Part shown: in pieces, positions 56,891 through 59,839 of the stretch
Position numbering within the stretch: the first letter of the stretch is position 1
Layout: the number at the start of each line of letters is the position of its first letter
NCBI RefSeq assembly: GCF_003722075.1
Contig: NZ_RDSK01000012.1
Coordinates: 124,001-188,000 of the forward strand
Reading direction: 5' to 3'
Length of the DNA: 64,000 nucleotides
From: Methanohalophilus sp. RSK
GTDB taxonomy: Archaea; Halobacteriota; Methanosarcinia; Methanosarcinales; Methanosarcinaceae
The notes under the pieces: model-generated
Told to the model about the DNA's origin: nothing
Database searches by the model: none
Seen by the model: the letters and a program-made list of their open reading frames with translations, nothing else
Program-made: the position numbers and the translations under genes

Positions 56891-57739
56891 GTGAAAATAA
56901 TAGCCGGACCAGCTTCCCAATTGCTTGCCTCTAAAGTGGCACAGCAACTCAATACGCCTCCCACAATATGTGATTATAAAAGATTCCCTGACGGGGAACT
57001 GTATACCCGCATCCGGGATGACAGTATCGATGATGTTACTATCATACAGAGTACGCCTACAGATGGCGATTATATAGCCCTGCTGCAATTAATAGATGCT
57101 TGTGAGGAAGCACCGACCATCAACGTGGTGATACCCTATATGGGATATGCCAGACAGGACAAAGTCTTCAACCAGGGAGAACCCGTCAGTGCGCGCGCAA
57201 TTGCCAGAACCATAAACGCCGACAGGGTATTCACGGTAAACATACATGAGAAAAGCATACTTGAACATTTCAATGCCGATTCCTTTGACCTTGACGCTTC
57301 ACACTTAATCGGAAATCATATACGTTCTATGAACCTGACAGATCCGCTAATAATCTCCCCGGATGCCGGTGCCCTCGAAATTGCAAAAAGTGCATCTGCA
57401 GATATAGGCATTCCCTATGAGCAACTTGAAAAAACAAGGCACAGCGGAGAAAGTGTAACGATTGCTGAAAAAGAGATTGATGTGAGCGGAAGGGATCTGA
57501 TACTACTGGACGACATGATTGCAACCGGTGGTACCATGGCAGAATCCATCCGGATGCTCAAAGAGCAAGGTGCTGCAGACATATATGTTGCCTGTATACA
57601 CCCGGTACTTGCACGCAATGCTGTGGTGCGTCTTTACAATGCTGGTGTCAAGGAGATTATATCCACTGATACCCTTGAAAAACCACAGAGCAGCATCTCG
57701 GTAGCCCCCCTGATAGCCGATACCCTTAAAAGCCTCTAA
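56891..57739 (+). CDS. prs: Ribose-phosphate pyrophosphokinase
   Basis: Makes PRPP from ribose-5-phosphate and ATP. 282 residues, the short archaeal form. FPDGELYTRI, VIPYMGYARQDKVF, and PRPP loop DDMIATGGTMAES are clear. GTG start at 56891 behind GAGGGAATGAT. Begins a run with the 126-residue gene, glycosylase and CDIN1-like gene. Confidence 0.95.
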   Translation: MKIIAGPASQLLASKVAQQLNTPPTICDYKRFPDGELYTRIRDDSIDDVTIIQSTPTDGDYIALLQLIDACEEAPTINVVIPYMGYARQDKVFNQGEPVSARAIARTINADRVFTVNIHEKSILEHFNADSFDLDASHLIGNHIRSMNLTDPLIISPDAGALEIAKSASADIGIPYEQLEKTRHSGESVTIAEKEIDVSGRDLILLDDMIATGGTMAESIRMLKEQGAADIYVACIHPVLARNAVVRLYNAGVKEIISTDTLEKPQSSISVAPLIADTLKSL

Positions 57740-57766: not shown

Positions 57767-58147
57767 ATGTCTTTACCGGAAATATGTCCCCTCGATGGGA
57801 CGCAGGTGTGCAAGAAAAGAAAGTGTCACCTCTACCATGTGGATTGGCGTACCGGTGATGAAAACTGTTCCGTTGGGTATAATCAGACCACAAAAATGAG
57901 AAAGAGTTCCGAATCTGTAGTGGATGAATATGCTCAACGTGTGAAGGAAAAACTAAAGAACAGGACAGAACCACCGGTAGATTCCAGAGAACCCACAGAG
58001 GAAATCCCACACCCAAAGGGCGACAAGGCTCCCACGAAAGAAAAAACCAGTGAGATATCCACAGAAGGAAAAAGGAAAAGTATAGACAAAGCAATGGAAC
58101 TTGACCTTCCAGATGATTATGAAGAAGAGTTCTGGTCCGACAGATAA
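57767..58147 (+). CDS. Uncharacterised protein with Cys-rich N-terminus and disordered charged tail
   Basis: 126 residues. The N-terminal 40 residues have CPLDGTQVCKKRKCHLYHVD and a Cys in DENCSVGY, likely one small metal site. The remainder (residues 45-126) is Lys/Glu/Pro-rich and looks disordered, ending DDYEEEFWSDR. I do not recognise it. GAGGAG precedes the ATG. It ends 10 bases before the glycosylase start. Confidence 0.75.
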   Translation: MSLPEICPLDGTQVCKKRKCHLYHVDWRTGDENCSVGYNQTTKMRKSSESVVDEYAQRVKEKLKNRTEPPVDSREPTEEIPHPKGDKAPTKEKTSEISTEGKRKSIDKAMELDLPDDYEEEFWSDR

Positions 58148-58157
58148 AGCAGAAAAT

Positions 58158-58799
58158 ATGCATGCAGAGATGCTGCAATCTGTTTATAACATACTCATAC
58201 GGGAATTTGGTTCACAGCATTGGTGGCCTGCTGAGACCCCTTTTGAAGTTATCGTGGGAGCAATACTTACACAGCAGACAAAATGGACTAATGTGGAAAA
58301 AGCTATCGATAACCTCAAACAGAAAAATATGCTTGAGGCCGACAAACTGGCAGGGATGGATCTGCAGGAACTTGAAGAAGATGTAAAATGTACCGGATTT
58401 TACAGGCAAAAGGCCAGCAGATTACAGGGAATATCCAGCTATTTTGATCATCACGGAGAAGAAGTACTTTTCTCCCTTCCAGCAGAAAAACTACGCAGGC
58501 GTTTACTTGAATTAAAGGGTATCGGACCTGAAACCGCAGATAGCATCCTGTTATATGCTGCCGGAAAACCCTGTTTTGTAATTGATGCATATACAACCAG
58601 AATAATGCGATGCATAGGAGTTGAGGGTAATTACCACCAGCTGCAGGAAATGTTTGTGAAAAATATTCCAGATGATGTAGAAATGTATAAGGAATACCAC
58701 GCCCTGATAGTGGAGTATGCGAAAAATTACTGTGTAACCAGGCAGTGCGACAAATGTCTCCTGCAGGGGAACAAGGATGGACAAAACAGAATACAATGA
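58158..58799 (+). CDS. Endonuclease III-related HhH-GPD DNA glycosylase
   Basis: 213-residue base-excision enzyme of the COG2231 type. TPFEVIVGAILTQQTKWTNVEKAI is the family opening. The HhH is LKGIGPETADSILL, where Glu125 sits at the position of EndoIII catalytic Lys; the conserved Asp143 is in FVIDAYTTR. The C-terminal Cys loop has only three of four ligands (CVTRQCDKC), so a 4Fe-4S cluster may be missing. A monofunctional glycosylase is likely (inference). ATG 58158 chosen; it overlaps the next gene by 23 bases. Confidence 0.88.
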   Translation: MHAEMLQSVYNILIREFGSQHWWPAETPFEVIVGAILTQQTKWTNVEKAIDNLKQKNMLEADKLAGMDLQELEEDVKCTGFYRQKASRLQGISSYFDHHGEEVLFSLPAEKLRRRLLELKGIGPETADSILLYAAGKPCFVIDAYTTRIMRCIGVEGNYHQLQEMFVKNIPDDVEMYKEYHALIVEYAKNYCVTRQCDKCLLQGNKDGQNRIQ

Positions 58800-59568
58800 G
58801 ATACACCGAAGCGTCAGGGAGGCTTCAGACTTCGAAAAACTGGCCCTGGATTACTGCCAGCCCGTAGGCGTAGTCGCTTCCATCCTGCACCAGAAAATTA
58901 TCGATCATGTAAAGAAAAATTACTATATTATCCAGAATAAAAGTGCTTTACTGCTCAAAAAATGGAAAAGAGGCAGCAGTATAATTCAACTTTCAGAAGA
59001 ATACAAATTCCCTCCTGCACTTATAGCCACAACACTGCTAAAAGAGTTGGGCATGTCCAAGAAATATGTATTCAACCACCTCGATGAAATAGAAGACAGC
59101 CGGCTGGCAGCTGAAATAAAGGAAGCCCTTGAAACAGATCTCTATTTTTCACCTGAAGCCCACTCTTTCCAGGCCAGGAAAGGAATATTAGGGGAAATGA
59201 TCGTAGCCAGGTGGCTTGAATACAGAAATATCGAATATCTGACAGAAGAAGAATTGAGAAAGCAAAGTGCAGAAAAGACACCTGATTTTCTCCTTCCAAG
59301 TCCTGTTGAGATCCGGGGCCAACAGGTAAACTGGGTCGAAAGCAAAGCCGTATTTGGTAACGAGGCCGAACACCAGGCCTATCTCAAAAAGCAGTATTCC
59401 CGCTATGAAGAATTGTACGGCAGTGGAATGGTGATCTACTGGTACGGTTACGTGGACGGAATCAGCCTGGAAGGCCATATAATAAGTGACTACAGGATAG
59501 ATGATGAGTTTGATCCTGACATCCTGCGAGATATAGTAGAATTACTCAATCTCACGCCTGACTGGTAA
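58777..59568 (+). CDS. CDIN1 (C15orf41)-like protein with TPD motif
   Basis: 263 residues related to human CDIN1, whose mutations cause congenital dyserythropoietic anaemia. N-terminal helical region (residues 1-120), then GILGEMIVARWLEYRNIEYLTEEE and a PD-(D/E)xK-like core: Thr168-Pro169-Asp170 in EKTPDFLL and Glu188-Ser-Lys190 in WVESKAVFG. A nuclease is predicted; activity not shown. Its start lies inside the glycosylase gene, so the two are coupled, which points to DNA processing. Confidence 0.88.
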   Translation: MDKTEYNEIHRSVREASDFEKLALDYCQPVGVVASILHQKIIDHVKKNYYIIQNKSALLLKKWKRGSSIIQLSEEYKFPPALIATTLLKELGMSKKYVFNHLDEIEDSRLAAEIKEALETDLYFSPEAHSFQARKGILGEMIVARWLEYRNIEYLTEEELRKQSAEKTPDFLLPSPVEIRGQQVNWVESKAVFGNEAEHQAYLKKQYSRYEELYGSGMVIYWYGYVDGISLEGHIISDYRIDDEFDPDILRDIVELLNLTPDW

Positions 59569-59788
59569 AATTACATTCCTTCATGGCTCTCAGTGGCAAA
59601 TCGGTGACTGTATCACTAAAATCTTCTTTTAATAAAACACCTTCCTCTACGAGACTGGCATGTGTGCCCATGGTTTCGAGCAATGAATCCACCTCTTCTC
59701 CTACAGGTTCTCTCATATTGTTCATTTCAAAAATATCTTGTAAAACAGATATTGCATTTCTTTTGCGGGAATCAGTGATGCGTGTCAT
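59552..59788 (-). CDS. Small uncharacterised protein
   Basis: 78 residues: MTRITDSRKRNAISVLQDIF, then acidic GEEVDSLLETMGTHASLVEEG and a short end CNFTSQA. Looks helical and soluble. Start ATG 59788 behind GGTG; the frame is open to 59800. It overlaps the 3' end of the CDIN1-like gene by 17 bases. I do not recognise it. Confidence 0.55.
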   Translation of the reverse strand: MTRITDSRKRNAISVLQDIFEMNNMREPVGEEVDSLLETMGTHASLVEEGVLLKEDFSDTVTDLPLRAMKECNFTSQA

Positions 59789-59839
59789 TAAGGTTAACAC
59801 CGTTGATTGTTTTTAAAAATCTGTCGATTTTTACCTGTT

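Follow-up and report, generated by a model that had tools for sequence, protein, structure and literature searches.

Genes encoding a MagIII-like DNA glycosylase and a putative nuclease related to human CDIN1 overlap in the window, the whole 64,000-nucleotide stretch analysed here from Methanohalophilus sp. RSK (family Methanosarcinaceae; genome size 1.97 Mb). With modest confidence, we favour the reading that both belong to a lineage-specific operon combining an alkylpurine glycosylase with a CDIN1-type nuclease, and that they do not constitute an obligate base-excision unit. The parts of this operon belong to known families, and their arrangement is lineage-specific. The genes form a same-strand run in which the successive gaps measure 27 and 10 bases and the last two genes overlap by 23:

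56891..57739, + strand: Prs, ribose-phosphate diphosphokinase (NF002095, 387 bits, above cut-off; order kept in relatives)
57767..58147, + strand: UP, a 126-aa protein of unassigned family (alignment A6; no Pfam match)
58158..58799, + strand: MagIII-like HhH-GPD DNA glycosylase, 213 aa (PF00730, alignment and structural model)
58777..58799, + strand: 23-base overlap between the 3' end of the glycosylase gene and the 5' end of the TPD gene
58777..59568, + strand: CDIN1-like putative nuclease with a TPD domain (PF14811), 263 aa (PF14811, alignment and structural model)

The gene overlap reported in the preliminary description agrees with these coordinates (58158-58799 and 58777-59568), and the start of the TPD gene at 58777 is backed by N-terminal alignment with its relatives. 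The glycosylase and TPD genes are under purifying selection, with dN values of 0.03-0.05 against dS values of 0.19-0.45 among congeners, and this evidence, together with their conservation, ruled out chance open reading frames. The overlapping pair is best explained as the 3' half of an operon of the Methanosarcinaceae in Prs, UP, glycosylase, TPD order. In this family, the two genes would share a transcript, and their translation is probably coupled. The TPD gene is followed by a FeoB gene on the opposite strand. A short conserved open reading frame on the minus strand (59552-59800) converges on the TPD 3' end, overlapping it here by 17 bases, and a converging frame of this kind, encoding as a rule 74-92 aa, was seen in eight of the Methanosarcinaceae loci examined.

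The glycosylase belongs to the HhH-GPD superfamily (PF00730, E=2.2e-16). Its top NCBIfam model was that of 3-methyladenine DNA glycosylase (NF010494, 121.6 bits against a cut-off of 192), followed by the nth model (TIGR01083, 70 bits against a cut-off of 211.7). Since the NF010494 cut-off was missed, the protein is designated here as MagIII-like rather than MagIII, its substrate identity being uncertified. The nearest solved protein was Helicobacter pylori MagIII (1pu6), with E=1.9e-26 in phmmer and 1e-33 in profile searches, and the best endonuclease III match reached 5e-14 with the single sequence and 7e-14 with the profile. The predicted structure (pLDDT 91) matched 1pu7 with a TM of 0.78 and 31% identity; the best Foldseek E-value was obtained for Deinococcus radiodurans EndoIII-1, slightly ahead of MagIII.

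An alignment of 16 orthologues revealed that Glu125 (codon 58530-58532), which occupies the lyase Lys position, and Asp143 (58584-58586) are invariant. Cys192, Cys197 and Cys200 are likewise invariant, and the fourth cluster cysteine is missing throughout the set, so that both the replacement of the lyase Lys and the incomplete cluster noted in the preliminary description are upheld. The MagIII residues Trp24, Trp25, Pro26, Glu132, Asp150 and Lys211 correspond to Trp22, Trp23, Pro24, Glu125, Asp143 and Lys189 and are conserved. The archaeal protein differs from MagIII in the alignment of Phe45 with Trp43 and in its three C-terminal cysteines. The MagIII residues aligned to Trp22, Trp23, Pro24, Trp43 and Lys189 presumably line the base pocket. 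The protein was also described as related to endonuclease III, which holds at the level of the superfamily; by score, however, it is MagIII-like, and its identification as a true endonuclease III was rejected given the absence of the lyase Lys, the presence of three of the four cluster cysteines, a TIGR01083 score below cut-off and a match far weaker than that to MagIII.

From its sequence, we expect the protein to be a MagIII-like alkylpurine glycosylase, predicted to be monofunctional. An alkylated purine would be flipped into the aromatic pocket, 3-methyladenine being the likeliest substrate; there Asp143 would hydrolyse the glycosidic bond, and the resulting abasic site would be passed to a general AP endonuclease, exonuclease III. 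The earlier proposal that the enzyme leaves abasic sites uncut is nonetheless uncertain. Sis-HhH-GPD from Saccharolobus islandicus, an alkylated-base glycosylase near the MagIII/MpgII/Mja-UDG group, also carries Glu at the lyase position, and AP lyase activity has been reported for it, which means that a missing Lys is no proof against strand cleavage (PMC11754123). Sis-HhH-GPD differs from the protein studied here in having four cysteines of its own and Ser in place of the Asp, and in being reported as bifunctional (PMC11754123). The point would be of minor consequence for the cell, since the genome harbouring the window encodes exonuclease III (E=6e-97, above cut-off; Nfo was matched below cut-off only). 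Abasic sites could thus be processed without dependence on the TPD protein, and the notion that a lacking AP endonuclease might force such a role on it was discarded.

The TPD protein matched PF14811 with E=1.7e-48 and 164.4 bits, against a cut-off of 27. An alignment comprising sequences from Methanosarcinaceae, ANME-2 and Archaeoglobaceae and from two Hydrothermarchaeota-group loci outlined a set of invariant residues: Gly139-Glu140, Thr168-Pro169-Asp170, Trp186, Glu188-Ser-Lys190, Gln206 and Tyr210. The PD-(D/E)xK core proposed in the preliminary description (Asp170, Glu188 and Lys190) is hence invariant, as are Glu140, Gln206 and Tyr210, which were absent from that proposal. The codons of the core residues lie at the following positions:

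59194-59196, + strand: Glu140
59284-59286, + strand: Asp170
59338-59340, + strand: Glu188
59344-59346, + strand: Lys190
59392-59394, + strand: Gln206

In the congener G197, the TPD gene (L064, 4251-3391, minus strand) carries a TAG codon, in frame, where the window protein has Leu155, with conserved sequence intact on both sides; the codon may be read through as pyrrolysine, or it may be a nonsense mutation of recent date.

The AlphaFold2 model of the TPD protein (mean pLDDT 95.4) presents helices up to approximately residue 120, a helix at 126-149, strands at 171-179 and 182-190, a helix at 196-214 and a strand at 217-221. In this model, the order of elements is that expected for a PD-(D/E)xK core, and the protein is thus predicted to combine an N-terminal helical, HTH-like region with an intact core that would be metal-dependent. 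The succession of a GxxGE helix, Asp, ExK and QxxxY is that of RecB-like PD-(D/E)xK nucleases (Cas4, AddB and RecB), but no solved protein of that group was matched significantly by the TPD protein, either in sequence or in fold. Searches of the PDB returned no solved structure related to it by sequence, and the best fold match had E=0.06, with BbvCI, AF1548, DdmD, BamHI and MUS81-EME1 among the upper ranks. Foldseek searches against predicted giant-virus structures returned a top match of E=1.3e-16 (TM 0.79 over 273 columns) to an unnamed protein, followed by a Powai lake megavirus 'TPD domain-containing protein' (1.8e-11) and a mimivirus 'CDAN1-interacting nuclease 1' (8.6e-10). CDIN1/TPD-type proteins whose predicted fold is that of the archaeal protein are encoded by giant viruses (BFVD A0A8F8SNR0, A0A167RJG3 and A0A2L2DJP4); no TPD relatives were confirmed in IMG/VR viral contigs. 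Through the Pfam and giant-virus fold matches, the TPD protein is best explained as the archaeal counterpart of CDIN1.

Mammals cannot do without CDIN1, which is mutated in congenital dyserythropoietic anaemia I. The human protein, C15ORF41, has been predicted to be a PD-(D/E)xK enzyme, with Asp196 named as the active-site Asp (PMC7261414); this residue is taken here, without an alignment, to be the equivalent of Asp170. When human CDIN1 was tried on DNA in linear, branched and circular form and on several RNAs, no nuclease activity was observed (PMC7261414), and none is reported in either PMC7261414 or PMC13370696. Together with the lack of a significant nuclease match in the PDB fold search, this inactivity across many DNA and RNA substrates would fit a catalytically idle scaffold or nucleic-acid binder that has kept a nuclease fold. 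The invariance of the core catalytic residues across distant archaeal groups is, however, hard to explain without catalysis, and we regard an idle TPD protein as very doubtful.

The distribution of both genes was surveyed in 393 genomes of the phylum, with other phyla represented by Hydrothermarchaeota-group genomes only. The TPD gene was detected in 116 genomes (61 Methanosarcinaceae, 4 ANME-2 and 51 Archaeoglobaceae). The MagIII-type glycosylase is far more widely distributed and is common in families without TPD. The two genes are not linked wherever both occur: among the Methanosarcinaceae and ANME-2 genomes encoding both, they are adjacent in 41 and apart in 23, the latter being three ANME-2 genomes and 20 of the Methanosarcina type, whose MagIII-like gene is a different one located elsewhere. 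Adjacency is kept in 41 of the 61 TPD-bearing Methanosarcinaceae genomes. Methanolobus, Methanococcoides and Methanohalobium present the full Prs-UP-glycosylase-TPD order, ANME-3-like genomes keep the glycosylase-TPD pair and lack UP, and Methanosarcina presents Prs-UP-TPD with no adjacent glycosylase. In Methanosarcina, a search for traces of a glycosylase gene in the stretch separating UP from TPD returned nothing better than E=0.5, leaving a recent loss of the gene from this gap unsupported. Conversely, in the Methanosarcinaceae genome G217 Prs-UP-glycosylase is kept and the TPD gene has been lost. No pair of a MagIII-type glycosylase and TPD was found in the Archaeoglobaceae.

Within one family the pairing is thus old and stable, and the 41 adjacent and 23 separate cases, together with G217, make it optional in both directions. 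The preliminary description had anticipated linkage in other genomes, and this is what we observe in 41 Methanosarcinaceae genomes, and in ANME-3 too, but not in the 20 Methanosarcina-type genomes, in ANME-2 or in the Archaeoglobaceae. It also proposed an archaeal base-excision unit. Spelled out, the TPD protein of such a unit would incise or trim the abasic site made by its partner, as a dedicated alternative to exonuclease III, and human CDIN1 would have a related activity. The gene overlap and the 41 adjacencies would also be given by a functional pair of this kind, and the retention of both genes in ANME-3-like genomes despite the absence of UP points in the same direction. Yet each gene persists without the other, which argues against an obligate two-enzyme pathway, and the genome encodes exonuclease III. 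We thus consider such a unit unlikely, and in its obligate form it is contradicted by the Methanosarcina nuclease without an adjacent glycosylase, by the reverse situation in G217 and by the separate location of the genes in ANME-2.

The neighbours of the TPD gene in other lineages, which are mostly unrelated to repair, also argue against an obligate unit. In ANME-2, the gene encoding the release factor aRF1 (TIGR03676, 588 bits) lies directly upstream of TPD in all seven loci. In the Archaeoglobaceae, 25 of 37 loci have an NMD3-domain open reading frame immediately before TPD, which it often overlaps, and two of the three such frames tested matched the Pfam domain (E values of 1e-9 and 2e-8). 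These NMD3-domain genes are stand-alone and encode approximately 90 aa (e.g. L046:2956-3237 and L051:2903-3175), and genomes with one also have a separate full-length NMD3 gene. Two Archaeoglobaceae loci present a canonical nth gene before the NMD3-domain gene, that is, two genes before TPD, and this second glycosylase in the vicinity speaks for a base-excision role. Two Hydrothermarchaeota-group genomes present the order DUF655-KsgA-Mtq2-TPD; relatives of Mtq2 methylate release factor. Other loci of this group have a divergent DUF192 gene by TPD and a gene for the CCA-adding enzyme nearby. A DUF488 gene was observed downstream of TPD in one of the KsgA-Mtq2 genomes and in three others, on the same strand and mostly end-to-end or overlapping (L177, L178, L180 and L181).

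These arrangements suggest that the TPD protein might cut ribosome- or termination-linked RNA, with the glycosylase as an operon passenger in the Methanosarcinaceae. The reported likeness of Codanin-1, the partner of CDIN1, to the mRNA-decay scaffold CNOT1 is in line with such a role (PMC7092493, PMC11911400). Codanin-1 is found in eukaryotes, and C15orf41 has been called the older of the two (PMC7092493). Translation genes are nevertheless common neighbours in archaea, which makes their recurrence in three lineages merely suggestive; the Methanosarcinaceae neighbourhood contains no translation gene, and RNA substrates were left uncut by human CDIN1-Codanin-1 (PMC7261414). A function in translation or RNA processing is consequently a tentative and somewhat improbable possibility, although the TPD neighbours and the Codanin-1/CNOT1 likeness back it at least as much as base excision.

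The genomic context of the glycosylase provides a control for the weight of adjacency. In lineages lacking the pair, among them ANME-2 and the families f3, f4 and f13, the glycosylase gene lies directly after npdG, the gene for the NADPH-dependent F420 reductase (all four cases tested scored above the TIGR01915 cut-off), and the two genes frequently overlap or abut; in several further families it adjoins an aldolase gene. The loci with this arrangement are:

L195, L197, L198, L199, L200, L203, L204 and L213: glycosylase gene and npdG

This packing, which would not be taken for a repair unit, is as close as that with TPD, and overlapping or adjacent genes are therefore weak evidence in these genomes, to the detriment of the base-excision proposal.

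The UP protein, encoded in nearly all Methanosarcinaceae and in three of the four ANME-2 genomes, has a Cys-rich N-terminus with invariant Cys7, Cys15, Cys20 and Cys34. A linker that differs greatly in length between relatives connects it to the C-terminal peptide LPxxYEEEFW, whose strong conservation makes it resemble a docking motif. UP was rejected as an obligate partner of either enzyme: it is kept without TPD in G217 and without the glycosylase in Methanosarcina, and it is missing from the ANME-3-like genomes that retain the pair.

The locus had also been put forward as a clue to human CDIN1. The relationship itself stands, with PF14811, the giant-virus fold matches and an intact PD-(D/E)xK core in common, but the clue is weak, as the pairing is confined to the Methanosarcinaceae, and the archaeal context contrasts in being formed by Prs, UP and the glycosylase here and by translation genes elsewhere. 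Abasic DNA is not named among the substrates tried on human CDIN1 (PMC7261414), which leaves some room for base excision. One could thus conceive, as a distinctly unlikely scenario, that nucleases of the CDIN1 type cleave DNA at abasic or alkylated sites or next to them, and that the Methanosarcinaceae deliver the TPD protein together with the glycosylase that makes such sites; if so, human CDIN1 would have seemed inactive because abasic DNA was not among the reported substrates. More generally, the lineage-specific operon that we favour here and the TPD neighbours in other archaea narrow the candidate substrates of CDIN1 to abasic or alkylated DNA and ribosome- or termination-linked RNA, and the archaeal relatives of CDIN1, being small, may express more easily than the human complex.
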